Part shown: positions 1 through 64,000 of the stretch, one piece after another
How the letters are laid out: each line of letters opens with the position of its first letter
Position numbering within the stretch: the stretch's first letter is position 1
NCBI GenBank assembly: GCA_949751835.1
Contig: CATKHK010000019.1
Span: forward strand, 434,001 to 498,000
Direction of reading: 5' to 3'
Source: Blepharisma japonicum
Taxonomy: Eukaryota; Ciliophora; Heterotrichea; Heterotrichida; Blepharismidae
Length of the DNA: 64,000 nt
Program-made: the position numbers and the translations under genes
Notes under the pieces: model-generated
The model's input: only the letters and a program-made list of their open reading frames with translations
Databases searched by the model: none
What the model was told of the DNA's origin: nothing

Positions 1-2
1 CT

Positions 3-2630
3 TATATTTTAAACCAAATTGAACAAGACAGCAAATCAGCAATTAAATTAAAGCTCAAAAATTACTGTAATGATAGAAAATTTTCTTTAGTTAATATCCA
101 GGATGGAGAAAGAGTGATAGTTGGATCAATCATAAATAGCAATATCACTATATCAAAAAATTTAATATTTCCTGGAAATTCTACGATTACCCCAAAATCA
201 ATCAAAAAAATCATAAACTTAAGCATAAACGCAGGCCCCACAAATCCGAATTCATCACCCGTAACAAGTGGTGTTATAGGATCTCATGGTGCTTATGTAG
301 TCAAAGATAAAATTAACTCCGGAAGCAGTAATCTTTTATCAAATTTTCAACTCGAATTTTTTATATTTGACTGCGGAGCAACTGTTTTTAACTCGACATT
401 TGCTTACAATTGTTTTAAAAAAGATATAAATAAATTCGGAATAGCTCATATATCGTCTCATGGCTCAGCAGTAGCAATAGGAGCTTTAAATATATTCAAG
501 CAGCTAAATTTAACATTCCCAGTTATCGGAACTACTAATTCTGATGTTTCTTTAAATTCGACTACAAAATATCCTATGTATACCCGAGTTGGGCTGTCTA
601 CTTCTTATGGCTCTATACTGACTGCAGTTTTACTCCGAGCAATGGGCTGAGAAAAAGCGGCGTTATTAAGTCAATCTGATAGTTGGGGCTCACAAAGAAT
701 TTATTATTTAAGTATGGGAGCGGCTTCGACTGATTTAGAAATAGTCAATCCTCAAAGCACAAGATATCTCCCGCCTAATCTTGATAGAGAAGGTCTTAAA
801 AATTATACACATATAATTCAAGGAATTATTGATAGTAAAGCGAGATTGCTGATTTGGTCTATACAATATCCGATGAGCAATTATGTGTTAGAAATGTTCT
901 ATGATTTAGGTCTAAGAAGCGGAGATTTAGTTATGTTTTCAACTTTTACAGACCCTTTGACGAATTTTGGAAATAATGATACGTTCAGATATAAAAGGAT
1001 AGAGGTTGGAATACCAATGATTGAGCTTGAATTAGAAAACTGGGTAGGGGATATAGGAAAAGATGCAAAAAATAGGATCATTTCGACTTATAATCAATCT
1101 CCAAATGGATTTTCTTGCAACTATGTCGATGGAGCTTATTTAATAGCTTATGCTTTAGACTACATGATAAATAGAGGAGAAGATTATACTAATCCTTTTA
1201 AGCTAGAATCTACTATAAGAAATCAGCAATTCCATGGATGCACTGGAAGAGTTTCAATAGAAAAAGGAACCAATGATCGTGCCACTGATGCTTTAGATAT
1301 CGGTGTAAACCAGCTTAATTCTGATGGCACAGTAAGCATTCAATATATTGGGAAATATATGCCCTATAACACTCAAGTATTAAAATACACTACACCTATG
1401 ATTTACCCTGGTGGAACTACTATCAAACCTAGCGACTTAAGAGACGAAAATAGCGAATGCCCATTTTCTAAAAAACTTATAAAGACTTTTGACAAAGGAA
1501 GAGAGCTACTTTTTGGCATCTGTTTCAGCGTTGCTTTAATAACAGTTTTTATAACAATTATCATATGAAGAAAATGGTGAAATATCTCAATCGAAATGCT
1601 AACTAAAAAAGAAGAAATTTCATTAGAAGATTTTATTGTTGGGATTTCTATTGCTGTGGAGTTTTTCCAGTATGCTGCCATGGGGCCTGATATTTCTCTT
1701 ATCAGCTCTATTATGGCTGATATAAGTGATGCTTTTTCACTTAATTTAAAAGACTTTTTTAAGCTGAGAAATGGAGTATTTTGGATTGTGGTAGATCTTG
1801 TTTTTGCAGGCATTGGATTATGAATTGCCTTGTGTTTAGTTGTTTTATTAAGACTTGATGAAAAATGCCACACAGTTTCAATGTTTAAATATTTATCAAT
1901 ATTAGCAGACTATGCAATGCCTATTTTAGGAAATTTGTGCTTTATTCCTTTTGTTTCAATATGTCTTGATATTTTTATATGCGACCAATCTATCGGTGAT
2001 AGCTTTACTGACAGTTTTTTATCTAAAGATTGTTATTATTTTTGCTGAAAAGATGAACATTTAGTATATGCGATAATATCATTTCTTGCGTTGATATTTT
2101 ATGAGCCCTTAGCTGTGTTCTGCAGGCCTCTTTGGCAAGAACTTCAGCCAATGCTGCATGTAAAAGCAGTTCCGCTATTTTTGATGATTAAAACGATTTT
2201 TCAAGTCACTCTAATTGTGATGAATAAAACAGTGAAAAGAGCCCAAGACATTACCCATGGAATCCTGTTTATTATAGTCATGGCTATTTATATTGCTTTT
2301 ACTTTTAAATTCAAACCTTATAATTACGAAAGATTCAGCTGGTGGCAAGGACTAACACTGATTGCGGTTGCTTGATTAGCTTTCATATCAACAATTGGTT
2401 TAATACTTAATAAAGGTTATACCCCTTTATTAATTATTTTAATATTAGGATGAATTATTATAACTATAACTGGGTTTTATATCCAAAGAAAGAAATATCC
2501 TAGCTTATTATTTAGGAGAAAAGGCCAGGATACATCAACTTTATTTAAATTTGCTTTTTCTTTTGGTAAAAGTTCGAAATTACATTTATCAAAAATATCT
2601 CCGAGCCAAGATAAGAAAAGCAACCCATAA
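3..2630 (+). CDS. Dual-VFT multi-pass receptor, subfamily I, copy 1 (5' end outside window)
   Basis: One frame is open from the window edge to TAA at 2628-2630 when TGA is read as Trp; 875 residues are visible. The missing part is the signal peptide and most of the first VFT domain. What remains starts at the tail of VFT1 (FSLVNIQDG, then LIFPGNS..IPKS). VFT2 follows, opening with LSINAGPTNPNSSP and FDCGATVFNSTFAYNCF, and closing with YPGGTTIKPSDLR and ECPFSKK. The membrane module begins with LLFGICFSVALITVFITIII at about 1510-1568 and includes CRPLWQEL, MNKTVKRAQDITHG and FKPYNYERFSWWQG. TGA stands for Trp at 648 (AMGW), 1566 and elsewhere. The likely role is a surface receptor for a small ligand, by domain type only. 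The copy looks intact as far as seen. Confidence 0.88.
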
Positions 2631-3219: not shown

Positions 3220-6200
3220 ATGATCCAAAAACCTATCCAAAAGTTATTATATTTGATAGAAATATTTTACTTATCCTCTACTTTAGAGGTCATAATTGCT
3301 TATGAAGGCTTGAATCCTGATATTCTAAATGAAAATTCCATTTTTAGCCTAACCAGTTCCTTTAGTAACCTTGTGGATTGGCACAAGTGTAAAATTTCAA
3401 ATATCTCTGCATGCTATGAAGAATTTTCAAATTCTTTAATTATTCTTGACTTATCTAGAGATTTAGATGTACAATACTCAATTTCTCAGCTATGTAAAAC
3501 CCATTTTTTGGCTCATTTAGTTTTCCAAGATAATTTCCACTATATTGACGACTGGACTTATTCAGCCATTACTTCAAAATTTGACCAAATTGATGCTTTT
3601 TTAGAAGTTCTCAATCATTTTGAGTGAAATAAAGGAGCAGCTTTTATTGATAAAGAAAGCTTATATGAAAGAGAACGAATGTCACAATTTTCTTCTGAAT
3701 TTAATTATTTAACTGTTGAAGAGTATTCAGATGTCGAGCAGCTTGTAAATAGGCTTACTTTTAAGCTAGGAGCAACACTTTATTATATTATTACTAATTC
3801 TGTGGATTCCTTACAAATCCAAAATTTTTTAAAAAGTGCGAAACTTTTAACTATCGGGAATGGGATTATTCTTAATCAGAGAAGTGGCTATTTATGTGAT
3901 AGTGATGGATTATTGATAATTACTGATTCTGGGCAAGAAGCAGTAACTTCTTTAGAAGAATATTATAAAAATTCTGCTATTAACACAATTTCTTATATTT
4001 TAAGCAATATTTCTCAGGAAAACACACAAAATATCATTTCAGCACTCCAATTAAAATTTAAAAATCATTACAATGAAGGTAGTTTCTCATTAATTAATGT
4101 CCAGAATGGAAAAAGAGTAATTGTTGGCTCAATCATAAATAATAGCCTCACAATATATAAAAATCTGACTTTTCCTGGAGAATCAAGTTCTATTCCAAAA
4201 TCCACTAAAAAAGTGATTAATTTAAGTATAAATGCTGGACCAAGTAACCCAGATTCCTCACCTGCATCTCCTGGTTTAATATTAGGCTCAAAAGGTGCAT
4301 ATATAGTTAAAGACAAAGTTAACGAGGGAAGCAGCCTTTTATCAAATTTTCAGCTTAAATTTTATATTTATGACTGTGGAGCGACTGTTTTTAACTCAAC
4401 ATTTGCTACTAATTGCTTCAAAAATGATATGGATAAATTTGGAGTTGCTTATATGTCTTCAGGAATGTCTGCAGTTGCAATTGGCGAACTAGGATTATTT
4501 CAGAAGCTCAACTGAACATTTCCAGCAGTAGGCTCTACCAATTCTGATGTCTCATTAAATTCTACAGCAAAGTATCCTATATATACTCGAGTAAGTATTT
4601 CCACTTCTTATAGCGCTTCAAAGACTGCCGTATTGCTTAGAGCTATGGGTTGAGAAAAAGCTGGACTATTGACACAAAATAATTCCTATGGTAAACAAAT
4701 AGCTTACTATATAAGCCAAGGAGCTGCTCTTGCAGATCTCGAAATAGTCAACCCTCAAACTACATGATTTATCCCTCCTAATCTTGATAGAGAAGGCATA
4801 AAAAATTACACATATATAATCCAAGGAATAATTGATTCTCAGGTAAGATTATTAATTTTATCGCTGCAGTTCCCTATGTATAATTACGTATATGAAATGT
4901 TTTATGATCTAGGGATGAGAAGTGGGGATATTATGATTTTTGCAGCAGCCCCAGATTCTTTGACAAGTATAGGCTATAATGATACTTTTAGGTACAAAAG
5001 ACTAGAAATTGCAATTCCTATGATTGAGCTTGACCCTGCCACTTGGGTCGGCGATGTAGGAAAAGATATAAAAAGCCGATTTATTTCAACTTATAATCAA
5101 GCTCCGAATAGTTTTGCTTGCCAATATGCAGACGGTGCATATCTCATTGCTTATGCTTTAGATTATATGATAAACAGAGGACAAGATTATACTGACCCTT
5201 ATAAATTGGACTCTGCTATAAGAAGCCAACAGTTTCAAGGATGTACAGGAAGAGTTTCAATAGAAAAAGGAAGCAATGATAGAATTGTTGATGCTTTAGA
5301 TATAGCTGTCAATAAGCTGGATTCAAATAATACAGTTATTATTCAGTATATTGGGAAATATATGCCGTACAGCACTCAGGTATTAAAATACACCACACCT
5401 ATGATTTATCCTGACGGTACTACTATTAAACCTAGCGATTTAAGAAATGAAAACGAGAAATGCCCATTTTCTAATAAACTTGTAAGAACTTTTACAAAGG
5501 GAAGAGGCCTTCTTTTTGGGATTTGTTTTACTGTCGCATTTATAACTTTTGTTATCACAATTTTTATATGAAGAAAATGGTGAAATATTTCAGTCGAGCC
5601 ATTGGTGAAAAAAGAAGAAATTTCTATGCAGGATTTTATTGTTGGGCTCACAATTGCGGTAGAAATATTCCAGTATGCAGCAATGGGGCCTGATTTTTCA
5701 CTTATTAGTCCTGCTGTATCTGGTGTAAGTGATGCCTTCTCGTTGAATTTGGATGATTTCATGAAATTGAAAAACGGAGTATTTTGGATTGTTGTAAACA
5801 TTGTGTTTGCTGGAATTGTGTTATGAATTGTTCTGTGTTTAGTAGTTTTATTGAGACTTGATGAAAAATGACATTTTATGCCGATATTTAGATATTTATC
5901 AATATTAGCAGATTATGCAATGCCGATTTTAGGAAATTTGTGCTTTATTCCTTTTGTTTCGATATGTCTTGATATTTTTATATGTGATCAGTCAATTGGT
6001 GAAAATTTCACTGACAGCTTTTTATCGAAGGATTGTTATTATTTTTGCTGAAAAGATGAACATTTAGTATATGCGATAATATCGTTTATTGCTTTGCTAT
6101 TATATGAGCCTTCTGCTGTATTTTGCAGACCTCTATGGCAAGAACTGCAACCAATTCTTCACGTAAAAGCAGTCCCGCTATTTTTGATGATTAAAACAAT

Positions 6201-6645
6201 AGTCCAAGTAACCTTAATAGTGATGAATAAAACAGTGAAAAGAGCTCAAGATATAACTCATGGGGTGCTATTTATCATAGTCATGGTTATGTATATTTTA
6301 TTTATTTTTAAATTCAAACCTTATAACTACGAAAGATTCAGCTGATGGCAAGGAATCACATTAACTGGTGTTGCTTGATTAGCTCTTATATCAGTAATTG
6401 GGCTAATACTTAGAGATGATTATACTCCTTTGCTAATTATATTAGTACTCGGGTGGCTCATTATCGCAATATTTGGATTTTATATACAAAAAATGAAGTA
6501 TCCAAGCTTGCTCTTCAGGCAAAAAGACAAAGATACTTCAACTTTATTCAAATTTGCTTTCACTTTTGGAAAAAATTCTAGACTCCACTTAACCAAAATT
6601 GTTCCATCTGAAAGCAAAAAAGCCAGCAGTAGAATTTCTATTTAA
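3220..6645 (+). CDS. Dual-VFT multi-pass receptor, subfamily I, copy 2 (complete)
   Basis: ATG at 3220 to TAA at 6643 gives 1,141 aa in one frame with TGA=Trp. The start is chosen because it gives a hydrophobic leader (LLYLIEIFYLSSTLE) right at the N terminus. VFT1 covers about residues 20-325: VDWHKC and SLIILDLS near its start, then an FxxVLxxxxW helix-strand pair, ending LTFPGESSSIPKS. VFT2 covers about 328-745: SINAGPSNP, YDCGATVFN, then a GQDYTDPYKL..FQGCTGRVSIEKGSNDR block, ending YPDGTTIKPSDLR. Membrane segments lie near residues 764-784, 852-878, 901-922, 949-970, 987-1004, 1013-1031, 1044-1064 and 1071-1090. The short C-terminal tail holds the family motif DTSTLFKFAFTFGK. No introns are evident. 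It is the clearest reference copy for the family. Ligand and signalling partner are unknown. Confidence 0.9.
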
Positions 6646-7265: not shown

Positions 7266-10200
7266 ATGTTCAGTAATTACATATTAATCATCATGCAACA
7301 GGAAGCCTTGAAAATATTATTTTTACTTTCAATATTCCACTTATCTAGCACTCTAGAAATCATAATTGCTTATGATAAACCAAATTCCAACTTAATAAGC
7401 GAAGCCTCCATTCTTGATATTACAGGCTCATTTCCAAATTCAGTGGATTGGCACATGTGCCAAATTTCAAGTATTTCTACTTGTATTGAAGAATTTTCTG
7501 GCTCATTGATTATTTTAGACTTATTAAGTGATTTAGATGCCCAGTACTCAATTTCTCAGTTATGTAAGAGCCATTTTTTAGTTCACCTAGTCTTCCAGGA
7601 TGACTTTAAATACACTGATGATTGGACTTTTTCGGTTATTACCTCAAAAATAGACCAAATGAATGCATTATTAGCAGTTATTGATCATTTTGAATGAAAA
7701 CAAGGGGTTATATTTATTAATAAAAAAAATTTATACGAAAAAGAAGCCCTAGGAAAATATTCATCAGAATTCAATTTTCTGACAATTGAAGAATATTCAA
7801 ACATAGAAATACTTGTAAATAGGCTTACTTTTAAGCTAGGTGCAACACTTTATTATATAGTTACTGATTCATTTGAAGCACTAGAAATCCAAAAGTCTTT
7901 AAACAATGCAAAACTTTTAAAAAGTGGAAATGGCATTATTCTCAACCAGAGAAGTGGATATCTATCCAGTATTGATGGCCTTTTAATAATTACTGATTTT
8001 GGACAAGAGTTCATAATTGCTTCAGAAGAATATTATAAAAATTCGGTTATAGCCGCGATCTCATATATTTTGAATCAAATTTCTCAAGAAAACGCTAAAA
8101 ATATTATCTCAGCTTTAGGATTAAAATTTAAAAACAATTATAATGAAGCCAAATTTTCTTTGGTAAATATTCAAGATGGAAAAAGAGTTATTGTTGGATC
8201 CATTATAAATAGCAATGCTACAATATCAGGAAATTTAATATTCCCTGGAAATTCAAGAATTATTCCAAAATCAACCAAAAAAATAATAAATTTAAGCATA
8301 AATGCTGGATCTACGAATCCAAATTCGGGACCTGTAGCTGTAGCTGTGATAGGATCTAGAGGTGTTTATGCAGTTAAAGACAAAATTAACGAAGGTCTCA
8401 CTAGCCTTTTAACAAACTTTCAGCTTGATTTTTTTAATTTTGACTGTGGTGTCACTGTTTTTAACTCAACATTTGCTTACAATTGCTTTAAAAAAGATAT
8501 TGATAAATTTGGAGTCGCACACGTGTCATCAGCTGGTTCTCCAGTAGCAATCGGTGCATTAAATGTATTCAAGCAGCTTAACGTTACTTTTCCAGTTGTA
8601 GGATGCTCGAATTCTGATATTTCATTGAATTCAACCTCAAAATATCCTATGTACACTCGAGTTGGTCTTTCCACTTCTTATGGTTCTATATTAACTGCAG
8701 TTTTGCTTAGAGCTATGGGATGGAAAAAAGCTTCAATATTAAGTCAAAATGACGCTTGGGGCCAGCAGAGATCTTATTATTTAAGCCAAGGGGCTGATAT
8801 TACTGATCTTGAAATAATTAATCCTAAGGACACATGATTCATACCTCCTAATCTTGATAAAGAAGCGCTAAAAAATTACACTCACATAATCCAAGGAATA
8901 ATTGATTCACAAACAAGGTTATTGATCTTCTCAGTGCAATTTCCTATGCTAAATTACGTATTAGATATGTTTTATGACTTAGGACTTCGGAGAGGAGATT
9001 TGGTTATTTTTGCCACGTTTCCAGATGCCTTAACAATTATTGGGAATAATGATACTTTAAAATATAAAAGGCTTGAGCTAGGAATCCCAATGATAGAACT
9101 TGAGGCTGCAAATTGGGTTGGCGATGTAGGAAAAGATATAAAAAATCGAATTATTTCTAAATATAGCCAAGCCCCTAGTGGATTTGCTTGCAGCTATGCG
9201 GATGGCGCCTATCTCATTGCTTATGCTTTAGATTATATGATAACCAGAGGAAAAGATTATACTGATCCTCATAAATTGGACTCTGCTATAAGAACTCAAC
9301 AATTTCAAGGATGTACAGGAAGAGTGTCAATAGAAAAAGGAACCAATGACAGAATTGTTGATGCTCTTGATATCGGCATAAATAAACTGAATTCTGATGG
9401 CACAGTAACCGTTCAATTTATAGGAAAATACATGCCATATAGCACTCAAGTATTAAAATATTTTTCACCGATGGTTTACTCTGATGGGACGACTATTAAG
9501 CCAAGCGATTTAAGGAACGAAAACAGCAAATGCCCATTTTCTGACAAATTAATAAGGACTTTTACTAAGGGAAGAGGCCTTCTCTTTGGAATATGCTTTA
9601 GTATCGCTTTTATAACATTTGCTATTACAGTTTTTATATGAAGAAAATGGTGAAATATTTCAGTTGAGCCATTGACCCAAAAAGAAGAAATTTCTTTACA
9701 GGACATAATTGTTGGGGCATCTATTGCTATAGAATTTTTCCAGTATGCCGCTATGGGGCCTGATTTTTCACTTATTAGTAAACCTGTGGCTGATGTAAGT
9801 GATGCTTTTTCGTTAAATTTGGATGATTTTATAAAATTGGAAAATGGCGTTTTTTGGATTGTTGTGAATGTTGTTTTTGCTGGAATTGGGCTATGAATAG
9901 TTCTTTGCATAGTAATTTTATTTAGACTTGATGAGAAATGGCATTTTATGCAAATATTTAGATATCTATCAATGCTAGCAGACTATGCAATGCCGATTTT
10001 AGGAAATTTGTGCTTTATTCCTTTTGTTTCAATATGCCTTGATATTTTTATATGTGATCAGTCAATTGGTGAAAATTTCACTGACAGCTTTTTATCGAAG
10101 GATTGTTATTATTTTTGTTGGAAAGATAGACATTTAGCGTATGCGATAATTTCCTTCATTGCTTTGCTATTATATGAACCTTTAGCTGTATTTTGCAGAC

Positions 10201-10703
10201 CTCTTTGGCAAGAGCTGCAGCCAATGCTGCATGTAAAAGCAGTTCCACTATTTTTGATGATTAAAACAATAGTCCAAGTGACTTTAATTGTGATGAATAA
10301 AACAGTAAAAAGAGCCCAAGACATTACACATGGGTTTTTATTTATTTTCATCATGATTATTTATATTTTATTTATTTTTAAATTCAAACCGTATAACTAC
10401 GAAAGATTTAGCTGATGGCAAGGAGTGACACTAATTGGAGTTACTTTGCTAGCTGTATTATCAACGATAGGATTGATTATTAAAGAAAGCTATACTCCTT
10501 TGCTGATTATATTAGTAATAGGGTGAACTCTTGTAGTGATATTTGGATTTTACATTCAGAAAAAGAAATATCCAAGCTTGCTATTCAGGAAAAAAGGCCA
10601 AGATACTTCAACTTTATTTAAATTTGCCTTTACTTTTGGCAAGCATTCTAGAGTTCATTTATCAAAAATATCTCCGAATGACAACCAAAAAGTTATTGAA
10701 TAA
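7266..10703 (+). CDS. Dual-VFT multi-pass receptor, subfamily I, copy 3 (complete)
   Basis: One frame runs from ATG at 7266 to TAA at 10701-10703 (1,145 aa). An in-frame ATG at 7293 would give 1,136 aa with the leader closer to the N terminus (MQQEALKILFLLSIFHLSS) and is equally possible. VFT1 has VDWHMC and SLIILDLL and ends LIFPGNSRIIPKS. VFT2 carries FDCGVTVFN, YPMYTRVGLSTSYGS, MGWKKASIL and FQGCTGRVSIEKGTNDR. Here the MGW tryptophan is TGG, whereas copies 1 and 2 have TGA at the same site; this is direct support for TGA=Trp. The membrane module matches copy 2 closely, with SKDCYYFC and KPYNYERFS. No frame breaks were found. Confidence 0.9.
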
Positions 10704-11224: not shown

Positions 11225-12013
11225 TTAGTTGTCTTATTAAGACTTGATGAAAAACGATTTTGTGCTACCATATTCCAAAACTTATTAGTGATTGCAGACT
11301 ATTTGATACCAATTTTAAGAGATATTCTCTGTATTCCTTTTGTTTCAATCTGTTTAGATATTTTTATATGCGATCAATTAATTGGCAATAATTTTGACAG
11401 CTTTTTATCTAAAGACTGCTATTATTTTAGCTGAAAAGATGAAAATTTAATGTATACAATAATATCATTTATTGCTTAAATATTATATGAGCTTTTAGCT
11501 GTATTTTGCAGACCACCGTGGCAAGAATTGCAGCCAATACTGCATGCAAAGGCAGTTCCCCTATTTTTGATGGTTAAAAAAATAGTCCAAGTAACTTTAA
11601 TTGTGATGAATAAAACAATAAAAAGGTCTCAAAACATTACCCATGGGATTTTATTTATTATAGTCATAATTATTTATATTTTGTTTATTTTTAGATTCAA
11701 GCCTTATAACTATGAAAGGTTCAGCTGGTGGCAAGGACTCACATTAATTGGAGTCTGTTGGTAGCTGGTTTATCAACACTAGGGTTGATTATTCATAAAG
11801 GATATATTCCCCTGTAGTTATTTTAATAATAGGATGGCTCATTATAGTATTATTTGGCCTATATGTACAGAAAATAGGTATCCAAACTTACTATTTAGAA
11901 AGAAAGGAAAAGATACCTCAGCATTATTCAAATTTGCCCCTACTCTTGCTAAGCATTCAAAAAAGCATTTAAATAAAATATCTCCAAATGAAGACAAAAA
12001 AATTAGTTATTAA
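11225..12013 (+). pseudogene. Decayed receptor copy: C-terminal membrane half only
   Basis: Homology to copies 1-3 starts abruptly at the VVLLRLDEK segment between the second and third membrane helices and runs to the usual C terminus. Both VFT domains and the first membrane helix are absent. The frame is broken: TAA at 11477-11479 replaces a leucine-rich stretch (FIALLLYE in the intact copies), and small deletions shift the frame near 11757 and around 11815. One piece stays readable from 11528 to about 11764 (MQPILHAKAVPLFLMV and on). It groups with subfamily I by KPYNYERFSWWQG. It looks like a truncated duplicate that never worked, or one long dead. Confidence 0.85.
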
Positions 12014-15300: not shown

Positions 15301-15755
15301 TAATTGTGATGAATAAAACAGTAAAAAGAGCACAAGACATCACTCATGGAGTTTTATTTATTTTTGTTATGATTCTTTATATTATTTTTCTATTCAAATT
15401 CAAGCCTTATAACTACTCAAGATTTAATTTATGGCAAAATTTGAGCTTAATTGGAGTCGCATGGTTAGCTTTTTTGTCAACAATTGCATTAGAGGTTAAA
15501 GGAAGTTCTATAATTTTGACAGCTGTTCTATGCAGTGGATGGGTTTTTATTATATTAATGGGGCTTTATATTCAAAAGAAAAAATGTCCAAGCCTACTTT
15601 TCAGAAAGAAAGCTCAAGACACTTCAACTTTATTTAGATTTGCGTTTACATTTGGCAAAAATTCGAAAAAGGCGTTGAATAAGATTATTCCTTCAAGTAT
15701 AGGCTCCGGAGTTTCCTCATCTCACAAGCTTCAATTTCAATTTAATGAAAATTAA
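12303..15755 (+). CDS. Dual-VFT multi-pass receptor, subfamily II (complete)
   Basis: ATG at 12303 to TAA at 15753 gives 1,150 aa in one frame with TGA=Trp; the second half of the leader is a hydrophobic stretch (LTYSCFICLIIITSSIE). VFT1 has IDWHICAYSSIYEC and SVLLDLSEDLSTQLS and ends TIFPGKTKSIPKS. VFT2 opens LSIDAGTTNPNYSPS and has ARGSYLALDLIN, YDCGASLFN, YPWYQRVWPSTSF and FAGCTGHFLIEKGSNDK, ending YPDGTTNKPTDFR. The first membrane segment begins near residue 764. Subfamily II hallmarks are SYDCYYFC and KPYNYSRFNLWQN. The C-terminal tail is longer and serine-rich (SSIGSGVSSSHKL). It ends 204 bases from the stop of the convergent next gene; a copy of this gene's 3' tip reappears near 19758. 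Confidence 0.9.
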
Positions 15756-46462: not shown

Positions 46463-47017
46463 AACCTAATTACTTATAAAAAAATTAAATCTTGAATATC
46501 TTAAATTATGGAATTGAGCATTCATTGGTGAAAATTAGAAAGTTTGTATAATTAATAAATTCTTTAATATATTATCTTATATATTGGAATTCCTTAGCTC
46601 AAGCATTTTTTAATTTATAAAAAAATTGCTGTTGATAAGCAAGTTGCAAGTAAAATTACAGTGTACTTTCAATTTTCTTTCTTTATCAAAAATAGAGCTA
46701 TTTTAAAAAAATGTGTATGAAGATATATTTATCTCAATTAATTTGCAATTAAAAATAATATTTTTAATCATATTAGCATGAATTAAAACAAATCAATAAG
46801 AAGTAAAAAGCTCTTGTGAGTTCTCAGATTTTTAATTTTGACTGATAATAGCTAAACATTGATTTAATGTAGAAAATTTTTTTTTAAAATATTTTAATAA
46901 TCAATAGAATTTTAAGGGCTTGCTATTAAATGCCTTAAAATGGTATTTTATAAATATTTTTGGATTAAAATAGCTGAAATTTTCAAAAATCCCTATCATA
47001 AATTTAACCATAAAATC
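46463..47017. other. Intergenic spacer, nothing recognised
   Basis: AT-rich spacer before a decayed partial copy. No coding sequence, RNA gene or repeat was recognised. Confidence 0.55.
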
Positions 47018-51200: not shown

Positions 51201-51676
51201 TAATGGTTAAGACGATTATCCAAGTTGCTTTAATAGTGATGAATAAAACTGTAAAAAGAGCCCAAGATATTACTCATGGAGCATTATTTATTGCTGTGAT
51301 GATTATTTACATTATTTTTCTCTATAAATTCAAGCCTTATAATTACTCGAGGTTCAATTTATGACAAAATTTAAGTTTAATCGGGGTGGTTTGACTCGCA
51401 ATATTATCGACAATTGCATTGGGCGCTAAAGGAAACTCTGTAATTTTGACAATATTTTTATTTGTTGGATGATTTATTATTGGACTGATAGGGGTATATA
51501 TACAAAGAAAAAAGTGCCCAAGTTTACTTTTTAGAAAGAAAGGCCATGATACTGCAAGCCTATTTAAATTTGCTTTTACTTTTGGCAAAAGTTCACGCAA
51601 AGCTTTAACTAGGATAGCTCCTTCTAGTGGCTCACTAGAAACCCAACACAAAAATAAAAATATTAATAGCAGATAA
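48239..51676 (+). CDS. Dual-VFT multi-pass receptor, subfamily II (complete)
   Basis: ATG at 48239 to TAA at 51674 gives 1,145 aa in one frame. The leader has a hydrophobic core (FIRLFYLAWFINLTVSIE), with TGA for its Trp. VFT1 has IDWHICQYISALQC and AYILLDLSQDLSTQLT, and ends TIFPGKTTSIPKS. VFT2 has LSIEAGITNPNYSPS, ARGAYLAVDYIN, YDCGVTVYN, YPFYQRVWPSTSF, LGWEKAAVLYQNDSWGQGG and FTGCSGRVIIEKGTNDR. The membrane half carries SYDCYYFC and KPYNYSRFNLWQN. The next gene starts only 84 bases after its stop and is its close relative. Confidence 0.9.
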
Positions 51677-51760: not shown

Positions 51761-54700
51761 ATGTGGCTTGTTTTAATTCAAAGACTTTTTGTAAGGTTTT
51801 ATTTTATTGCATTGCTCATAAAACTTTCACTTTCTCTAGAGATTATTGTTATTCAAAGTGATATGAATTACAAAGACGATTTGTGAAATGGAGGGATTTT
51901 GATTAGTTATTTAGTAGATGCAAGTCCTCAAATAGACTGACACATTTGCCCATATATTTCAGCACTTAAATGTATAGAATTTTATTCAGATTCCTTCATT
52001 TTAATTGATTTGTCAGAAGACCTAAGCACCCAAGCTGCAATGTCTGAACTTTGTAGGGAGCATAAAAAAATTCATTTAGTGGCTCAAGATGAGTTTAAAT
52101 ACCACGATGACTTGACTTATTCAGTTATTTCGTCTAAGCAAAATAGATTTAACGCATTTTTTAATTTACTGAACTTTTTTAACTGGAGTAAAGGGACAAT
52201 TTTTACAAATTGGTATTATGAGGAGAGGTTTTTGAATTTCACAGAAAACTTTAATCTAATAACAATTGAGTCAATGATTGATATGGAAGATTTAATAATG
52301 AGAATTGTTCCACCTTTAGGATCAACTCTTTACTATATATTTACACAGAATAACGAATCGATTTCGATACAAAATTATTTAATAAAGGCAAACTTATTAA
52401 CTGGAGGAAGTGGAATTATTTTAAATCAGAAAAGCGGCTATAAATGCAAAATTGAAGGGGCTTTAATAATAACTGATATGAGTAAAGAAGTCACAGATTC
52501 TGAAGAAAGATACCTGGGCTCTTCTATTTTAGCTTTTCTCAAAGAAATAGAAAATTCTGAAAATATGCTTGATGCATTAAATATACTGGAAAAAGCACAT
52601 AAAAATCATTATGGACCAAACAAATTTTCTATTGTCAATATCCAGGGTGGAGAAAGGGTTATAATTGGATCGATTATTGAAGGAGAAGTTTTTATGCAAA
52701 ATAATGCAATTTTCCTAGGAAATACTACATCAATTCCCAAATCAGATAAAAAAATTCTGAGGATAAGCATTGATGCTGGGTCAACCAATCCAAACTATTC
52801 TCCATCAACTGTAGGCCCTCTAGCAGCTCGAGGCTCATATTTAGCTGCAAGCTATATAAATGAAGGCAACTCTGGAATATTATCAAATTTTCAAATTGAT
52901 ATGTTTAATTATGACTGTGGTGCTAGTGTCTATAATGCATCATTTGCTAAAGCTTGCTTTAAAAAGGATTTTGATAGTTTTGGCTTAGCCCATATTGTAT
53001 CATATGCATCCTCAATGGCCCTTGGTACTGTAAAACTATTCAAGTCGTTAAATTGGAATTTTCCTCTCCTCGGGATCAATTCAGATCCTTCATTTAATTC
53101 CTCCACATTATATCCATGGTACCAAAGAGTTTGGCCTTCCTCTTCGTTTACACTTCCCTTAATCCCTGTTTTATTACGATCTCTTGGCTGAGAAAAAGCA
53201 GCAATTTTATACCAAAATGACAGCTGAGGCCAAAATGGGTATTATTATTTAAATCTAGGTGCAAATACTCATAATTTGATTTTAGTAAATCCTGATGAGA
53301 CCAGAGCAATTCCTATTGGACTCGATAGAAATACAATAAAAAATCATTCAGACATCCTACAAGGAGTGATAGATTCAAATGCAAGGCTGGTTATTCTTCT
53401 GGTACAAGTCCCATTAGTGCAGTATGTAATTGAAGCTTTTTATGATTTAGGCCTAAGGAGAGGCGATATACTTATATTTGTTTCTGTTCCCGATATTTTG
53501 TCCAACATTTTAACAAGTGATGACTACCTTTATAAAAGGCTGGAAATCGGAGTGCCTATGATGACTTTTTTTGGGCAGCAATGAGTTGGAAAACTTGGCC
53601 AGGGTGCTTATTCGAAAATTTTGCAGTTATATAATAACACTGCGCCCAGTTCTTTTGCGTGCCATTATTTTGACATAATTTATTTAATAGGTCATGCTCT
53701 TGATTTTATGATTAACCGTGGGCAAGATTATACAAATCCTTATAAATTGGAAAGTGTAATAAGAAACACACAGTTTATAGGCTGCTCTGGAAGTGTGATT
53801 ATTGAAAAAGGAACCAATGACAGATTTGTTTCAGTTTTAAGTGTCCAAGTAGATAAATTTGATATAAATGGAAATGTTGTCAAGTATTTTATTGGACAAT
53901 TAAAGCCGTATAGTACACAAATGTTGCAAATTTCCACCCCGCTTATTTACCCTGACGGGACCACCATAAAGCCTTCAGATTTAAGAAATCAAGACACTGA
54001 TTGCCCTTTTCCTGATAATGAGATAAAAACTTTCGTTAAAGGGAAAATTTTGGTTTTTTGCATTTGTTTTGCTATTACTCTTATATCAATGATAATTACT
54101 TTTATTATATGAAAAAGGTGGTGAGAATTTTCAATTGAAGAGCTTAAAGAAAAACAAGAAATTTCTTTCCAAGATGCTGTAGTTGCCGCAACGATCGCTA
54201 TCGAATTTTTCCAATTTGCTTCGATGGGACCTAACATGTCATACTTAAGCTCGACTTTAGGAAATTTTAGTAATTCTTTAACTTTGGAGCTAACAAATAT
54301 TATAAAACTCAAAAATGGGGTATTTTGGGTAATTGTTGATGCAGTTTATGGATTGATAATTCTATGAATTTCAATGTGTGGAGTAATTCTTCTCCGCTTA
54401 GATGAAAAATATTTACATTTTACGCTTTTTAGATTTATAGCTTGGCTTGCTGATTATATGATGCCAATTTTAGGAAATTTGTGCTTCATTCCATTTATTT
54501 CTATATGTCTTGATATTTTTGTATGTGATCAGTCAATTGGAGATAATTTTACCGACAGTTTTCTCTCATATGATTGCTATTATTTTTGCTGAAAAGGTGA
54601 ACACTTAGCATATGCAATTTTGTCATTTTTCGCTTTATTGTGTTATGAGCCGCTCGCAGTATTTTGCAGGCCTCTTTGGCAAGAGTTCCAATCGCTGCTG

Positions 54701-55183
54701 CATGTAAAAGCAGCCCCTTTATTTTTGATGGTTAAAACAATTATCCAGGTTACTTTAATAGTGATGAATAAAACTGTAAAAAGAGCTCAAGATATTACTC
54801 ATGGAGCTTTGTTTGTTTTGGTAATGATCATTTATATTGCTTTTCTATTTAAGTTCAAACCTTATAACTATTCAAGGTTCAATTTATGACAAAATTTAAG
54901 CTTAATTGGTGTGGTGTGGTTAGCAATATTATCAACAATTGCACTTGGCGCTAAGGGAAACTCTGCAATATTAACAGTATTATTATGTGCTGGATGGACC
55001 ATAATTGGTATATTCGGGCTTTATATTCAAAGAAAGAAATATCCAAGCTTACTTTTTAGAAAAAAAGGCCATGATACAGTAAGTCTATTTAAATTTGCCT
55101 TTACCTTTGGAAGAAGCTCACGCAAAGCTTTGACTAAAATAGCCCCTTCAAGTGGCTCATCAGAGCTTCAGCACAAGAAATAA
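51761..55183 (+). CDS. Dual-VFT multi-pass receptor, subfamily II (complete)
   Basis: ATG at 51761 to TAA at 55181 gives 1,140 aa in one frame. The leader (MWLVLIQRLFVRFYFIALLI) is hydrophobic. VFT1 has IDWHICPYISALKC and SFILIDLSEDLSTQAA, and ends AIFLGNTTSIPKS; the usual FPG is FLG here. VFT2 has RISIDAGSTNPNYSPS, ARGSYLAASYIN, YDCGASVYN, YPWYQRVWPSSSF and FIGCSGSVIIEKGTNDR. The membrane half has SYDCYYFC and KPYNYSRFNL followed by a TGA Trp. The promoter must fit into the 84-base gap or lie inside the upstream gene. The gene converges with the next one, with 101 bases between stops. Confidence 0.9.
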
Positions 55184-55284: not shown

Positions 55285-58200
55285 TTAGTCAGCACTTTTG
55301 ATCCCAGATGGCATTATTTTGCCTTTTGAAAGTGTACCTTTTCCAAAAGTAAAGGCAAACTTAAATAAAGTAGACGTATCTTTACCCCTTTTTCTGAATA
55401 ATAAGCTAGGATATTTTTTCTTTTGAACGTATAATCCAAGAGCAACAATTGCAAGCCACCCACCTATTAAAACTACAAGTAAAGGAACAAAATTATCTTT
55501 TATTCCTATCGCAATTGTGGATAGTGAAGCTAGCCATACAACTCCAATCAAACTTAGCTCTTCCCACCAGCTAAATCTTGGGTAATTATAAGGCTTAAAT
55601 TTAAACGTAAAAATTATATATATAATCATCACAATGACGAATAAAACTCCATGTGCGATATTTTGAGATCTTTTTATTGTTTTATTCATCACAATTAATG
55701 TAATCTGGATCACACTTTTTACCATCAAATATAATGGAGCAGTTTTCACGTGCAGCATATGTTGTAATTCTTGTCAAAGAGGCCTGCAAAATATTGCCAA
55801 TGGGACATATAAAATTAGTGCAAGAAATGATCCAATTGCGTACCCTAAATGCTCGCCTTTCCAGCAAAAATAATTGCAATCCCTTGCAAGAAAGCTGTCA
55901 GTAAAGTTATCTCCGATTGACTGGTCACATAAGAAAATATCAAGGCAAATTGAAATAAAAGGAATAAAGCACAAATTCCCTAAAATAGGCATAAGATAGT
56001 CAGCAAGCCATGATAAAAATCTAAAAATGGAAAAAAACCTCCACTTCTCATCTAGCCTTAGCAAAACAACAGCACAAAGAAGTGCCCATACCCCAACCCC
56101 GCAAAAAACTATATCCACGACAATCCAAAAAGTTCCTTTATCAAAATTCAAAATATCCCATAGACTTAGTGAAAGTACATCTGAAATTTTTGCAATAGCA
56201 GAGCTCAAAATATCGAAATCAGGCCCCATAGCAGTGTATTGGAAAAATTCTATAACAATAGACGCTGCTACTATTGTGTCTTCTATAGAAATTTCTTCTT
56301 TTTGTTTTAGCTCATCAATAGAGATATTTCATCATTTTTTTCATATTAGCACTGTAACACCAAAAGAAATTAATGCAACTGAAAAGCAAACCCCAAATAG
56401 CAGCTCTCTTCCTTTATCAAATGTTTTAATTTCTTTATCAGGGAATGGACATTTACTATTTTCATTCCTTAAATCGCTAGGCTTATTGGTAGTTCCATCA
56501 GGATAAACAATAGGATTTGTGATACTTAAAATCTGAGCCGAAAATGGTTTTAATTTACCTATAAATTTTGTAGTAATTGCACCAGATAAATCATCCTGAC
56601 TGACCTCTATATCTCACCCGTCAACAATCCTGTCATTCGTCCCTTTCTCTATTGTTACCCTTCCTGTGCATCCTTGAAACTGCTGAATCCTTATGACTGC
56701 TTCTAACTTTTTAGTGTCAGTGTAATCCTGCCCTCTATTTATCATATAATCCAAAGCATGAGCCAAAAGATAAACTCCATCATAATAAGGGCAAGTAAAC
56801 GCATTTGTAGGCTCTTTATAGGTTGCCATGACCTTTGCTTTAGCTTTTTCCCCAATTTCTCCTACCCAATTTTGTTGAATCATCCTAAACATCGGAACTC
56901 CGACTTCAAGCCTTTTATATAGATAAGTATCATTGCCTCCAATAATAGTTAGCATATCCAAATAAGTCGCGAAAATTAGCATATCACCTTTTCTCATGCC
57001 TAAATCATAGAGCATTTCTAGCACAAAATTGCACATAGGATACTGTACCGTAACTATCAATAATCTTGCTTGGGAATCTATGATTTTCTGGAACACATTG
57101 GTATAGTTTTTTATAGTGGTTCTATCAAGATTCGCGGGAATATATCAAGTGCTTTCTGGATTCATTATTTGTAAGCCCTGACTTTTGATGGCTGGGTTTA
57201 AATACCACGACCTTGAAATTGCCCATAAATCGTTTTGGTATAAAATCGCAATTTTTTTCCATCCCATAACTTTGATTAAAACTGAGAGTAATGAAGAAGC
57301 ATAAGCTGTGGAAAACCCTACTCGGGTGTACATTGGATAGGTTTTCGTTACATTTAGAGAAGCATCAGAATTGGTGCATCCTACAACTGGAAAAGATGCA
57401 TTAAGAGATTTGAAAGTCTGCAATGCTCCAACAGCTACACTTGAGCCATATGATGAAATATGGCCTAAGCCAAATTTATCAATGTCTTTTAGAAAACAAC
57501 TATAAGCAAATTTCGCATTATAGACGGTAGCTCCACAGTCATAATTAAAAAACGCAAGCTGGAAATTTGATAAGATGCCGTGGCCTGCATTTATCTCATC
57601 TCTTGATAATCATGCACCTCTAGCACCGATTACGCCACTTGTAGCTGGCAGTGCATTCGGGTTTGTTGGCCCAGCATTTATGCTTAAATTCAAAATTTTT
57701 TTGGTAGATTTCGGAATTATGCTTGATTTCCCAGGAAAAGTAAGGTTATTTGCTATAAAAACATCATTATTTATAATCGTCCCGACAATGATTCTTTTGC
57801 CATTCTGGATGTTGACTAAAGAAAATTTGTTTTTATCAGGATAATTTTTAAGCACAGAGAGCAGATTTTGGGCATTTTCCTTTGAAATGTGACTTAAAAT
57901 GTAAGAAATGACATTTATAATAGAATTTTTAAAATATTCTTCAGAAGATTCAGTATATTCTTGCCCATAATCAGTAATAATTAAGGCTCCATCTGTATCA
58001 CACTGGTACCCGCTTTCTTGGTTTAAAATAATTCCATTACCAAGTGATAAGAGTTTTGCATGATTTAAGTATTTTTGAATCTCAAGTGACTCTGAGATAT
58101 GAGAAAATATATAGTAAACTGTGGCCCCTTCTCGAAAAACAACTTTATTTACAAGCTCTTCGATGCTTGATTTAGCCTCCACTCCTAAAAACTTGAATTC

Positions 58201-58701
58201 GCTTGAAAATTTTTTAACTTTTTCTTTAAAATCATAATTCTCTTGATTGTAAAACGCAATCCCCTGCGTCCAATCTAAATATTCGAGAGCTGCTAAAAAA
58301 GCATTTATTTGATCGGTTTTAGGCGAAGCAAGCGAGAAAGTTCAATTGTCAGAATATTCTAAGCTGCTTTCTAGAACCAAGTGAATTATGAAATTGCTGA
58401 TGCATAACTGTGAAATTTTGTTTTGGGTATCTAAATTGATAGATAAATCAAGCAAAATTAATGAACCCGGAAAATTGCCAATGCATTCATCAATGAGTGA
58501 AATCTCGCATCTGTGTCAGTCGACAGATGAATTTAGTGATTGAGTCATATCAAGAATAATAGCTTCGTCTCACATGTCAGAATCTGAATCACTTCTATCT
58601 ATATAAGCAATTATAATTTCTAACGAAAAGGATAATTGCGATATTGTGAATAATAAAAGAAGCATTCTGAAATAACGCTGAAGAACGCCAAAAGCTGTCA
58701 T
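55285..58701 (-). CDS. Dual-VFT multi-pass receptor, subfamily III, copy f (complete)
   Basis: Minus strand, ATG at 58701 to TAA at 55285-55287, 1,138 aa in one frame. The leader is MTAFGVLQRYFRMLLLLFTI. VFT1 has VDWHRC and SLILLDLSINLDTQNK, and ends LTFPGKSSIIPKS. VFT2 has SINAGPTNPNALPA, YDCGATVYN, YPMYTRVGFSTAYASS and FQGCTGRVTIEKGTNDR, and closes YPDGTTNKPSDLRNENSKC. The membrane half has ARDCNYFCWKGEHL (Asn for the usual Tyr) and KPYNYPRFSWWEEL, so it is more distant from copies a-e. The tail ends GIKSAD. The gene at 60605 is its nearest relative in the window. Confidence 0.9.
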
Positions 58702-60604: not shown

Positions 60605-63600
60605 TTAAGAAATTTTGTGTTCTTTTGGGACTATTTTTCCCTTTGAGAATCCGACACTTTTTCCAAAAGAAAAAGCAAATTTAAATAAAGTTGACGTATC
60701 TTTGGCGCTTTTTCTAAATAACAGGCTGGGATATTTTTTCTTTTGAATGTAGAGCCCAACAATTACGATAATAAGCCAGCCAAAAATCAAAACTGCTAAC
60801 AGAGGAATGAAATCATGCTGGATCCCTATAGCAATCATAGATATAAAAGCTAGCCACTCAACACCAATTAAGCTTAAGCCTTGTCATCAGCTAAATCTTG
60901 GATAATTGTAGGGCTTAAATTTAAAAGTAAATATAATATAAATCAGCAGAACTATTATAAACAAAACACTATGGGCTATTTCTTGAGATCGTTTTATAGT
61001 TTTATTCATAACAATTAATGAAATCTGAAAAATACTTTTTACCATCAAATATAAGGGAACAACTTTGACATGAAGCATTAGCTGCAACTCTTGCCAAAGA
61101 GGCCTACAAAATATCGCTAAAGGTACATATAAAAGCAGTGCTAAACAAGACAGTATTGCATATATCAAATGCTCATCTTTTCAACAAAAATAGTGGCAAT
61201 CTCTAGCAAGAAAACTGTCAGTAAAATCATCACCAATTGATTGATCACATAAATAAACATCAAGACAAATCGAAATAAAAGGGATAAAGCACAAATTCCC
61301 TAAAATCGGCATGAGATAATCAGCAAGCCATGATAAAAACTTAAAAATAGATATAAACTGCCATTTTTCATCAAGTCTTAACAAAATAACAGCGCAAAGA
61401 ACAGCTCAGAGCCCAATTCCTCCAAAAACAATTTCTACAACAACCCAGAATACCCCATTTTCCATCTTTAAAATATCATCTAAATTCAGTGACAATGAAT
61501 TAGAAAATTTCGAAACTATAGAAGAAAAAATTGAAGTTTCAGGTCCCATGGAAGTATATTGGAAAAATTCCACAATTATTGATACTCCCACTATTAAATC
61601 TGGCACTGAAATTTCTTCTTTTTTCTTTAGCTCATCAATTGATATATTTCATCATTTTTTCCATATTAAAACAGTAATTACAAATGTAACCAAGGCAACA
61701 ACAAAGCAAATCCCAAAGAGCAGCCCCCTTCCTTTAGGAAAAGTTCTTATCTCTTTATTAGGGAATGGACATTTATTATTTTCATTTCTTAGATCGCTGG
61801 GCTTAATAGTAGTTCCATCAGGATAAACAATAGGATTTGTGATGCTTAAAATTTGGGAGGAAAAAGGCCTTAATTTCCCTATAAACTGAGTAATAACATT
61901 TCCTGCTTCATCGAACTCATTTATTTCGATGTCTCAGACGTCAACAATTCTGTCATTAGTCCCTTTCTCAATTGCCACTTTTCCTGTGCAGCCTTGAAAT
62001 TGCTGATTTCTAATAGCCGCTTCTAGTTTATAAGGGTCAGTGTAATCTTGCCCTCTGTCTATCATATAATCCAAAGCATGAGCTATAATATAAATCCCAT
62101 CATAATAAGGGCAAGTATATGAATTTGTAGGTTCTTTAAACATAGATGTTATTTTTTCTTTAATACTTGCTCCTTTTTTACCTACTCAATTTTGTGGAAG
62201 CATTCTAAAAGTTGGAATACCTACTGCAATCCTTTTTCATGCATAAATATCATCTTTTCCAGCAGCAGTTAGCTGATCCAGATAAGTTGCGAAAAAAAAT
62301 AAATCACCTTTTCTAATTCCAAGATCATAAAAAAACTCCATCAAAAAGTTATACATAGGATACTGCATAGTCAAGACCAATAGCCTAGCTTGGGAATCAA
62401 TAATGCTTTTTATTGTGCTGGCATAATTTTTTAAGCCTTCTCTATCAAGACCTGCAGGAATATATCAGGTACTTTCTGGATTCACAATTTCTAATCCTTG
62501 CTTATCTATAGCTGGGTTTAAATATCAAGACCTTCCTATTGCCCAAGTATCGTTTTGATATAAAATCGCGATTTTTTTATATCCCATAACTTTGATTAAA
62601 ACTGAAAGCAATGAATAAGCGTACGCAATGGAGTAACCCACCCTTGTAAACATAGGAAAATTTGAAGTGGAGTTTAATGAAGCATCAGTATTTGAGCATC
62701 CAACTATTGGGAATGTTAAATTGAGCAGTTTAAATGTCTGCATTGCTCCAATCGCTACATTGGAAGCATATGATGACACATGGCCAAAACCGAACTTGCC
62801 AATATCTTTTAGAAAACAGCTATAAGCGAATTTCGCGTTATAAACAGTAGCGCCACAGTCGTAGTTAAATAGCTCAATATGAAAATTCGGTAAAATGGTG
62901 TGACCATCATTTATTTCATCTTTTGCAAAATAAGTACCTCTTGCTGCAATTACACCCCCTGTTGCAGGCAATGCATAAGGATTTGTGGGGCCTGCATTTA
63001 TGCTTAAATTCAAAATTTTTTTGGTTGACTTTGGAATAGTATTTGAGGTCCCAGGAAAAGTCAAATTATTTGTTATGACGATATTATTATTTACAATTGA
63101 TCCAACTACCACTCTCTCTCCGCTCTGGATATTCACCAAAGAAAACTTGTTTTCATTAGGACTATTTCGGAAGCCCTTCATAATGACTTGAAGATCTGAC
63201 GATGTTTCATTTGAAGTTTGGTCTATAATAAAAGAAATTGCACTTACAATAGAGTCTTTAAAATATTCACTAGAAGAAGCTGCAAATTCGTGTGCGAAAT
63301 CAGTGATAATTAAAGCGCCATCAGTTTCACACTGATAGCCACTTTCTTGATCAAGAACTATTCCATTACCAGATGTAAGAAGTTTGGATTTTTTTAAGTT
63401 TTTTTGGATTTCTAATGATTGTTCTCAGTTTGCAAAGAGACAATATACAGTTGCACCTTCTCTAAAAGCAACTTTATTGATAAGCTCTTTGATGCTTGAC
63501 TTTGTTTCAACTGCCAAAAAATTAAATTCATATGAAAAATGTTTCATGGTTTCTTTTACTTCGTAATTCTCTTTATTATTAAAAGCAATCCCTTGAGTCC

Positions 63601-64000
63601 AATTTAGATATCTCAGTACTGATAATACAGCAGTTATCTGCTCAATTTTAGAAGAGCCAAGAGAAAATGTTCACTCATCAGCAAATTTTATGTTGCTCTG
63701 GAGAACTAAATGAATCAAAATTCGACTTTTGCATAAATGGGAAATTGAACTTTGTGTCGCTATATCATTTGATAAATCTACTAGAATCCTTGCATTTGGA
63801 AAGCAGTCAGCACAGCGAGGAAGATTTGTAATGCTACATTTGTGCCAGTCCACAGAAGCACTTAACGATTGAGTGATGCTAAAAATAAAGGTTTCGTCTT
63901 GATAAAGACTGTCCTCATAAGCGATTATAACTTCTAATGGGGTGGATAAGTGTAAAAAAGTAAATAATGTCAAGGTTTTCCACAAAATCTGTGATCGAAT
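60605..64000 (-). CDS. Dual-VFT multi-pass receptor, subfamily III, copy g (start outside window)
   Basis: Minus strand, open from the window edge to TAA at 60605-60607; 1,131 residues are visible. Only the first few codons seem to be missing, since the hydrophobic leader (LTLFTFLHLSTPLE) is present but no ATG precedes it. VFT1 has VDWHKC and ARILVDLSNDIATQSS, and ends LTFPGTSNTIPKS. VFT2 has SINAGPTNPYALPA, YDCGATVYN, YPKF-like FPMFTRVGYSIAYAYS and FQGCTGKVAIEKGTNDR. Near 62236 the usual YKRLEVG reads WKRIAVG, with TGA for Trp. The membrane half has ARDCHYFCWKDEHL and KPYNYPRFSWW. The tail ends KIVPKEHKIS. No frame breaks were found. Confidence 0.88.

Follow-up and report, generated by a model that had tools for sequence, protein, structure and literature searches.

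The DNA considered here is a 64,000-nucleotide stretch of the Blepharisma japonicum genome (GenBank assembly GCA_949751835.1, contig CATKHK010000019.1, here C19, positions 434001–498000), referred to below as the window; the genome comprises 45.2 Mb in 224 contigs. The window is largely filled by genes for putative chemoreceptors, and the comparisons below establish a family, lineage-expanded and duplicated in tandem, of single-chain proteins that each have a predicted signal peptide, two Venus-flytrap domains in series (VFT1 and VFT2) and a membrane module for which about nine helices are predicted. The window has 12 complete copies; two more are truncated at its edges, one is broken, and three others are remnants. 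The 15 genes, with the broken one included, make up 79% of the window, and the gaps between them measure 85–2216 bases. The array on C19 runs beyond the window, with 24 family members at ~338–499 kb, 15 of these in the window. An earlier note on this sequence had described a dense cluster of receptors with the same domain order in every intact copy. The order signal peptide, VFT1, VFT2, membrane module is indeed seen in all 12 complete copies; the cluster stands as to its copies, but one of the 15 genes is a pseudogene with two breaks, and three further stretches are fragments.

The window has a G+C content of ~30%. With the standard code the longest listed open reading frame (ORF) is 433 amino acids. 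When TGA is read as Trp there are 12 complete, uninterrupted frames of 1135–1216 codons, each with 7–18 in-frame TGA codons and a TAA stop, and conserved Trp positions are encoded by TGA. The genome reads TGA as Trp. According to the available text of its genome paper, the somatic genome of Blepharisma stoltei is 41 Mbp and 66% AT, uses UGA for Trp and has introns mostly of 15–16 bp (PMC9942806). The reading frame previously given for the gene at 3220–6645 is correct; this gene serves as the reference, and its parts are as follows (basis in brackets).

3220..6645, plus strand: complete copy, reference protein P0001, 1141 amino acids (TGA = Trp frame, Pfam scan)
3220..3279, plus strand: predicted signal peptide, approximate (hydropathy, with a hydrophobic segment at residues 9–27)
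3280..4215, plus strand: VFT1, residues 21–332, a diverged and shortened type I periplasmic-binding-protein (PBP-I) domain (Pfam, profiles, relatives)
4216..5469, plus strand: VFT2, residues 333–750, an ANF_receptor domain ending in CPF (Pfam, alignment, profile)
5470..6642, plus strand: membrane module, residues 751–1141, with about nine predicted helices, a Cys loop and a basic tail (hydropathy, conservation)

The other copies and remnants in the window are:

3..2627, plus strand: copy cut by the left window edge, with the end of VFT1, VFT2 and the membrane module (frame)
7266..10703, plus strand: complete copy from its first Met; alignments were started at the in-frame Met at 7293 (frame, alignment)
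11225..12001, plus strand: remnant, a membrane-module fragment only (similarity to copies)
12303..15755, plus strand: complete copy, P0003 (frame, Pfam scan)
15960..19442, minus strand: complete copy from its first Met; alignments were started at the in-frame Met at 19370 (frame, alignment)
19671..19754, minus strand: remnant of 28 codons, similar to the C-terminus of a copy (similarity to copies)
20162..23563, minus strand: complete copy, P0002 (frame, Pfam scan)
24617..28027, minus strand: complete copy (frame)
28805..32209, minus strand: complete copy (frame)
32601..35930, minus strand: broken copy, with one loss of frame in VFT1 and another in VFT2 (frame, paralogue comparison)
37222..40818, plus strand: complete copy from its first Met; the Met at 37387 is the family-like start (frame, alignment)
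43034..46462, plus strand: complete copy (frame)
47013..47755, plus strand: remnant with pieces of VFT2 spread over more than one frame (similarity to copies)
48239..51676, plus strand: complete copy (frame)
51761..55183, plus strand: complete copy (frame)
55285..58701, minus strand: complete copy, P0004 (frame, Pfam scan)
60605..64000, minus strand: copy cut by the right edge, complete in the excised locus L024 with 1138 codons (frame)

The copy at 32601–35930 has two breaks, and at the one in VFT2 residues present in the paralogues are also missing; it is taken to be a pseudogene. The first break may be a sequencing error. Tiny introns at the breaks were considered and rejected by eye, as no insert of 15–16 bases lies between continuous paralogue sequence.

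VFT2 matches the Pfam family PF01094 (ANF_receptor) directly. The curated cut-off of this family is 25.4 bits, and all four whole window proteins scanned exceed it (66.7–85.7 bits, E values of 2.5e-18 to 4.1e-24); each of the four also shows two PF01094 stretches at E <= 1. The VFT2 fragment of the 3220 gene, scanned in isolation, is over the cut-off with 55.6 bits (5.9e-15). With the limit set at 1e-5, a profile of 18 VFT2s matches 205 different PDB sequences, the top chains being plant GLR3.4 (2.5e-28), GABA-B1 (2.6e-21) and T1R2a (2.7e-19), and mGlu receptors are among the nearest relatives. A short linker with the tripeptide CPF, invariant in the window, joins VFT2 to the first helix, and its C and P are kept in at least 90% of 18 diverse members. 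The Pfam scans list no Cys-rich domain between VFT2 and the membrane.

VFT1 is a more diverged domain, and the case for it leans on relatives. Taken alone, VFT1 of the 3220 gene matches the corresponding part of the PF01094 model with 18.1 bits (0.0015), which is under the cut-off. A genome-wide PF01094 search, however, found five genes with a second match at the VFT1 position. Three of these matches pass the cut-off by themselves, on contigs C133 (62.2 bits, 3.8e-16), C64 (31.5 bits, 6.5e-7) and C112 (30.2 bits, 1.6e-6); two further C112 genes have matches of 22.4 and 21.3 bits at this place, which pass only with their neighbours. The 30.2-bit C112 gene is closely related to the window copies, since its module and the 3220-gene module share 67% identity. 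Four divergent genes, L004 (C133), L005 (C52), L006 (C173) and L009 (C59), keep the order of VFT2 and module, and the N-terminal half of each, scanned by itself, matches PF01094 over the cut-off (2.8e-17, 3.1e-15, 4.1e-13 and 7e-12; 45.5–63.3 bits).

Profile comparisons connect the window VFT1s to these divergent forms. A profile of 37 other VFT1s, 13 of them from the window, aligns with the four divergent VFT1s over 316 columns (98.7%, 3.5e-16) and gives 0.0% with the membrane module. VFT1 against VFT2 gives 85.4% (5.8e-6) with all VFT2s included. Relative to the divergent VFT1s, those of the window are shortened, chiefly in the first part of lobe 1. When 17 VFT1s, the four divergent ones among them, were scanned one at a time, eight matched PF01094 at E <= 0.01. 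A profile of the 17 matches 177 PDB sequences at E <= 1, the best 60 being all NMDA-receptor chains, with the GluN1 amino-terminal domain (ATD) best at 5e-13. In 42 of 42 ORFs with 1100 or more codons the N-terminus is covered by the same profile (E of 4.2e-36 or better); 25 of these rows were absent from the profile, and selection of the loci had been on matches to VFT2 or the module and not on VFT1. The 42 ORFs represent 41 genes, because the L024 row is the window edge gene again, and L030 and L034–L063 are too short to show the entire N-terminus.

Sequence comparison thus assigns both VFT1 and VFT2 to the PBP-I type. This bears out the earlier proposal of two flytraps in series on each chain, VFT2 by its own matches and VFT1 by the relatives that pass the cut-off and by the 98.7% alignment, and the first 325 residues compare as a PBP domain. 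The landmarks quoted for the 20162–23563 product, LSYLNWRQGVAIGN and LLKVMGWQKIAVLYQN, FPGQSITIPKS and YPDGTTIKPSDLR, are also present.

The mean hydropathy of the membrane module has nine peaks, and the weakest, near residue 815, decides between eight and nine helices. Among 19 diverse members, with the ectodomain outside, nine helices place the basic tail (a mean of 7.5 K+R versus 2.3 D+E) inside and the Cys loop outside, whereas eight place the basic tail outside. Loops 3, 5 and 7, which the nine-helix topology puts inside, carry the expected net positive charge. Approximately eight segments had been counted originally; the multi-pass module is there, but nine predicted helices fit hydropathy and the charges of tail and loops better and appear more likely. 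Module residues D55, Q68, P74, W106, C172, C189, C193, W194, H198, R220, W223 and K242 are invariant in the 19 members, and E65 is kept in 18. Modules with no preceding VFT2 were seen only in two fragments of 379 and 356 codons, both cut by locus ends (L045 and L063).

What the module is related to was sought in several ways. In a Pfam scan of the 19 modules that listed matches to E <= 10, with most matches above ~0.1 dropped by HMMER filters, no family did better than 0.07, and a PDB profile search returned nothing at E <= 10. Two folds were tried as candidates, 7tm_3 and then TRP-like, and neither held. PF00003 (7tm_3) and PF06011 (TRP-like) are each listed in 0 of the 19 modules, and the module profile gave 0.4% with three 7tm_3 proteins of the same genome (reversed decoy 1.0%) and 1.5% with three of its TRP-like modules (reversed decoy 0.1%). 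The best Pfam mention touching a module, Oxidored_q2 at 0.0016 in the whole L005 protein, is below cut-off, and the module by itself did not reproduce a match of that strength. Searches of GTDB genome contigs and viral contigs gave 56 and 292 pattern matches, none of which was confirmed; the patterns were short and exact and say little on distant relatives.

Could the module be an oligomeric pore, perhaps of a distant TRP-like fold, that is opened by flytrap closure? Such a ligand-gated channel is an unlikely candidate. The invariant D55, Q68, P74, R220 and K242 and the nearly invariant E65 include residues inside predicted helices. The TRP-like/FLC family (PF06011) resembles the module in its many helices and in a similarly placed (K/R)P(Y/F) motif, with which the module's KPYNY aligns, and the TRP-like fold is present in the genome. 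Against this, the profile relation to the TRP-like modules is not significant, no usable Pfam or PDB match was obtained for the module, and a pore signature was not noticed in it. The genome has 15 PF06011 matches, eight of them flagged over cut-off, with five on C139 and the rest on C110, C51, C15 and other contigs; loci L072–L074 belong to this set.

A variant class C G protein-coupled receptor (GPCR) would have a class C core of seven transmembrane (7TM) helices, two extra helices and a second flytrap, and would act through a diverged G protein; this is distinctly unlikely. Class C GPCRs (GABA-B, mGlu, T1R and CaSR, with PF01094 and PF00003) likewise carry a PBP-I flytrap over a multi-pass module, the nearest PDB relatives of VFT2 include GABA-B, T1R and mGlu receptors, and 7tm_3 and RGS domains are present in the genome. 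They differ in having one flytrap per chain and seven 7tm_3 helices, where the present family has two flytraps, eight or more probably nine helices and no 7tm_3 match. As far as the available text of PMC12716839 goes, GABA-B resembles the present family in lacking a Cys-rich domain, and in the glutamate-family GPCRs an ANF domain accompanies the 7TM. The profile test against the genome's own 7tm_3 proteins, RGS-bearing ones included, speaks against a class C variant, as do the PF00003 scans. A genome-wide 7tm_3 search found three places (C5, C25 and C81), none in the window. A six-frame G-alpha search of the genome, run without a eukaryotic positive control, gave 19 matches with none over cut-off alone. 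All 19 fall within profile positions 159–264 of 333, and 17 lie in open frames of 153–242 codons that look like Arf-like GTPases. We lean to a signalling route other than that of canonical GPCRs.

The three 7tm_3 places encode proteins of 431–433 codons matching PF00003: L001 853–2151 (C5), L002 961–2253 (C25) and L003 958–2250 (C81). L001 is over cut-off (1.9e-9), and the other two are below (4.8e-5 and 5.2e-4). In L002 and L003 an RGS domain over cut-off follows 7tm_3, a 7TM-RGS layout in a ciliate.

The family extends well outside C19. The PF01094 genome search gave at least 106 matches (102 of 267 candidates scored), and two module queries gave at least 118 (118 of 264) and at least 106 (106 of 297). 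The family is estimated at no fewer than 163 genes on 50 contigs, which is both an estimate and a lower bound, obtained by merging 118 module places with ANF places at the expected spacing and excluding five second pieces of genes that were counted already. This merging rule yields 15 genes in the window, the correct number. VFT2 and module share one frame at 30 of 30 ANF loci cut out, where L024 is the window gene and L030 is cut. By these searches, the architecture is genuine, and the window shows only a small part of its extent.

In a tree of 60 distinct modules, shown without support values, the window copies fall in two groups. The first comprises the copies at 12303, 37222, 48239 and 51761, beside copies from other contigs; the second comprises eleven window copies, next to which L040 (C112) is placed. 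A long branch carries the four divergent genes. Their VFT1 is longer and less decayed, their loci have 37–38% G+C, and their frames contain one to four TGA codons; C61:8–871, at a contig start, is a fifth VFT1 of this type. Possibly this subgroup is nearest to the ancestral form.

Paralogue identity averages 51% for VFT1, 57% for VFT2 and 70% for the module (66 pairs of the 12 copies). The ratio of nonsynonymous to synonymous substitution rates (dN/dS) in window pairs is 0.16–0.31 for VFT1 (six pairs), 0.10–0.20 for VFT2 (eight pairs) and 0.09–0.15 for the module (eight pairs). Purifying selection acts on all domains in all pairs tested and is weakest on VFT1. A variable sensor over a conserved transducer fits a chemosensory repertoire.

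The large tandem arrays, with their remnants and broken copy, and a VFT1 that is the most variable of the three domains, are also what one might find in variant surface proteins that serve self/non-self or mating recognition, gamone receptors included. This is very improbable, as no dN/dS value exceeds 0.31 and the strongly conserved module argues for a transducer rather than a coat. Nutrient uptake is a further thought, with tandem substrate-binding domains fused to a permease. Bacterial GlnPQ shows such a tandem pair on a permease, PBP domains as a class bind substrates, and the module is conserved and polytopic. Uptake is nonetheless very improbable: the scanned chains have neither an ATPase nor a known permease family, and so many paralogues (163 or more by estimate), with the ectodomain as the more variable part, would be out of the ordinary in a transporter. 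That VFT1 is not a PBP domain at all is barely credible, for although the 3220-gene VFT1 alone misses the Pfam cut-off, nine of 17 VFT1s have no PF01094 match at 0.01 and the fold prediction is of low confidence, there stand against it the relatives over cut-off, the profile link, the GluN1 ATD matches, the coverage of all 42 ORFs and the alternating helices and strands predicted for residues 62–312 even in a poor model.

Two other known systems invite comparison. In ionotropic glutamate receptors (iGluRs) a distal PBP-I domain lies above the ligand domain, and this proximal domain is of type II (PBP-II) and split around the pore. The best PDB match of VFT1 is the amino-terminal part of the NMDA-receptor subunit GluN1, and that of VFT2 is the plant receptor GLR3.4. 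The present family differs in that both domains are PBP-I, unsplit and upstream of all helices, and no Pfam match to a PBP-II ligand domain split by a pore was seen in the four whole window proteins. The BvgS and EvgS kinases are bacterial single-pass proteins with PBP-II type flytraps and a histidine kinase. Tandem flytraps before the membrane on one chain, a BvgS-like layout, are present in 42 of 42 full-length ORFs of the family, compared here by layout and not by sequence; the family has PF01094 flytraps and no kinase, none being listed by Pfam in four plus seven whole family proteins. In the part of PMC4352136 available, BvgS and EvgS likewise have a distal VFT1 and a proximal VFT2 near the membrane, and the effect of locking VFT1 of BvgS closed was assayed functionally; by their listings, PMC5573083 and PMC5431781 have tandem flytraps for EvgS and CdgH also. 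The earlier note had called the tandem pair unusual. This stands for eukaryotes, in which no PBP-I tandem on a multi-pass module was found in the literature searched, and has to be qualified in view of the bacterial kinases. By the tests made, the family appears not to belong to the class C GPCRs, iGluRs, TRP-like channels or BvgS kinases, and by anatomy it would work like a tandem-flytrap receptor.

The reading preferred here is that the genes probably form an expanded family of surface chemoreceptors with tandem PBP-I flytraps and a module of about nine predicted helices, and that they probably do not signal by a canonical G protein. Blepharisma is a predator, and the proteins may be its chemoreceptors, with the ectodomain outside the cell and binding small molecules. 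VFT2 would be the proximal sensor, set directly on the first helix, whose closure drives the module. VFT1, shortened, least constrained and most variable, might tune ligand choice, dimerization or the resting state. The NMDA-receptor ATD tunes its receptor, and it serves, with BvgS VFT1, as the model for this putative role. Output could be channel activity or a cytosolic partner; it would not pass through a recognized 7tm_3 domain and probably not through a canonical heterotrimeric G protein. A stronger version, a receptor superfamily of its own in which tandem PBP-I flytraps sit on a nine-helix module without detected relative, which is a main chemosensory repertoire (an estimated 163 or more genes) of a unicellular predator and which uses no canonical heterotrimeric G protein, is put forward tentatively, at somewhat less than an even chance.

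As to ligands, VFT2 appears closest to amino-acid-binding flytraps (plant GLR, GABA-B, T1R, mGlu). Food amino acids are candidates. Blepharisma has a tryptophan-derived mating pheromone, and this may be proposed more boldly. The amino-acid site of mGlu1 we take to include S165, T188 and Y236. In 14 window VFT2s, the place of S165 has Ser or Thr in 10 and a gap in four, that of T188 has Ser in 12 and Ala in two, and that of Y236 is aromatic in all 14 (Trp in 13, Tyr in one). No mGlu1-like set was seen when VFT1 was checked by eye. An amino-acid-like ligand for window VFT2 is possible.

A number of observations weigh against the chemoreceptor interpretation or parts of it. The mGlu1 site, with the residues assumed above, is only partly kept in the window, and in the four divergent members, as judged by eye, the S165 place has Gly and the T188 place Gly or Asp; hence an amino-acid ligand is not established. 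When the VFT1 profile is limited to the window, its value with the four divergent VFT1s is only 7.6%. VFT1 against VFT2 falls to 0.2% with window sequences only, to 18.9% without the four divergent members and to 0.9% against the VFT2s of those four. Without the four, a 24-sequence VFT1 profile has a weaker best GluN1 match (5.7e-4), which lies mainly in the closing segment; on a different segment it matches a GluK2 chain at 0.0086. Structure prediction, together with profile searches of each half, had been suggested as a check; the searches gave the values reported above, over the cut-off for VFT2 and below it for VFT1 of the 3220 gene, and the prediction was unusable. AlphaFold2 at full length (14 window sequences) reached a mean predicted local distance difference test score (pLDDT) of 39 and a predicted template modelling score of 0.27, and the module (15 window sequences) a mean pLDDT of 44. 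Foldseek found no match to the low-confidence module model at E <= 0.001; the weaker entries that it returned, TRPV4 and TAS2R14 among them, were not used. Since both models are of low confidence, the three domain assignments rest on sequence, and the flytraps are PBP-I by homology and not by fold. Loop 1 of the module is net negative although inside under the nine-helix topology. A 676-codon frame on C42 contains several G-alpha pieces, two of which pass cut-off only when summed (89 bits); with the RGS domains of L002 and L003, this suggests that some G-protein-like signalling may exist. Finally, variable ectodomains are also compatible with surface-antigen variation.

No description of the family was found in the literature covered, which left out preprints and most subscription papers. 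One survey, in which 27 ciliate species were examined by domain annotation, reported no family C GPCR; in the part of the paper available its methods comprise Pfam including 7TM_3, Superfamily, PROSITE and helix prediction, and Blepharisma is not among the words found (PMC9960496). As it relied on domain annotation, the survey would have missed the present module, and in light of its result flytrap sensing in ciliates looks under-described. The main text of the B. stoltei genome paper, so far as accessible, has neither 'receptor' nor 'tandem' (PMC9942806), and the available text of the gamone 1 paper mentions putative receptors and names no receptor gene (PMC10892320).

Together, these observations look like a large chemosensory repertoire on a layout for which no description was found. 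T1R and V2R receptors serve as chemosensory repertoires, and that of vertebrate V2Rs is of comparable size. A single cell might thus have a repertoire of vertebrate-V2R size, with a varying distal flytrap and an unvarying membrane module. The family would supply candidates for the tasting of prey and nutrients by heterotrichs, and candidate receptors for the small-molecule mating pheromone of Blepharisma. If the fold of the module proves new, it would be a new kind of transducer.

An apparent unrelated gene lies at 59128–60047 (plus strand) of the window, with an acidic frame that is UBA-like by eye, followed by a 190-codon frame with six TGA codons and no Pfam match. With respect to contig ends, a 24-base pattern from the CCCTAACA telomere repeat of B. 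stoltei has 168 matches in the genome, against none for the pattern read backwards. Matches are found within the first 100 bases of C36, C47, C69, C78, C80 and C89, and others are at high contig coordinates.

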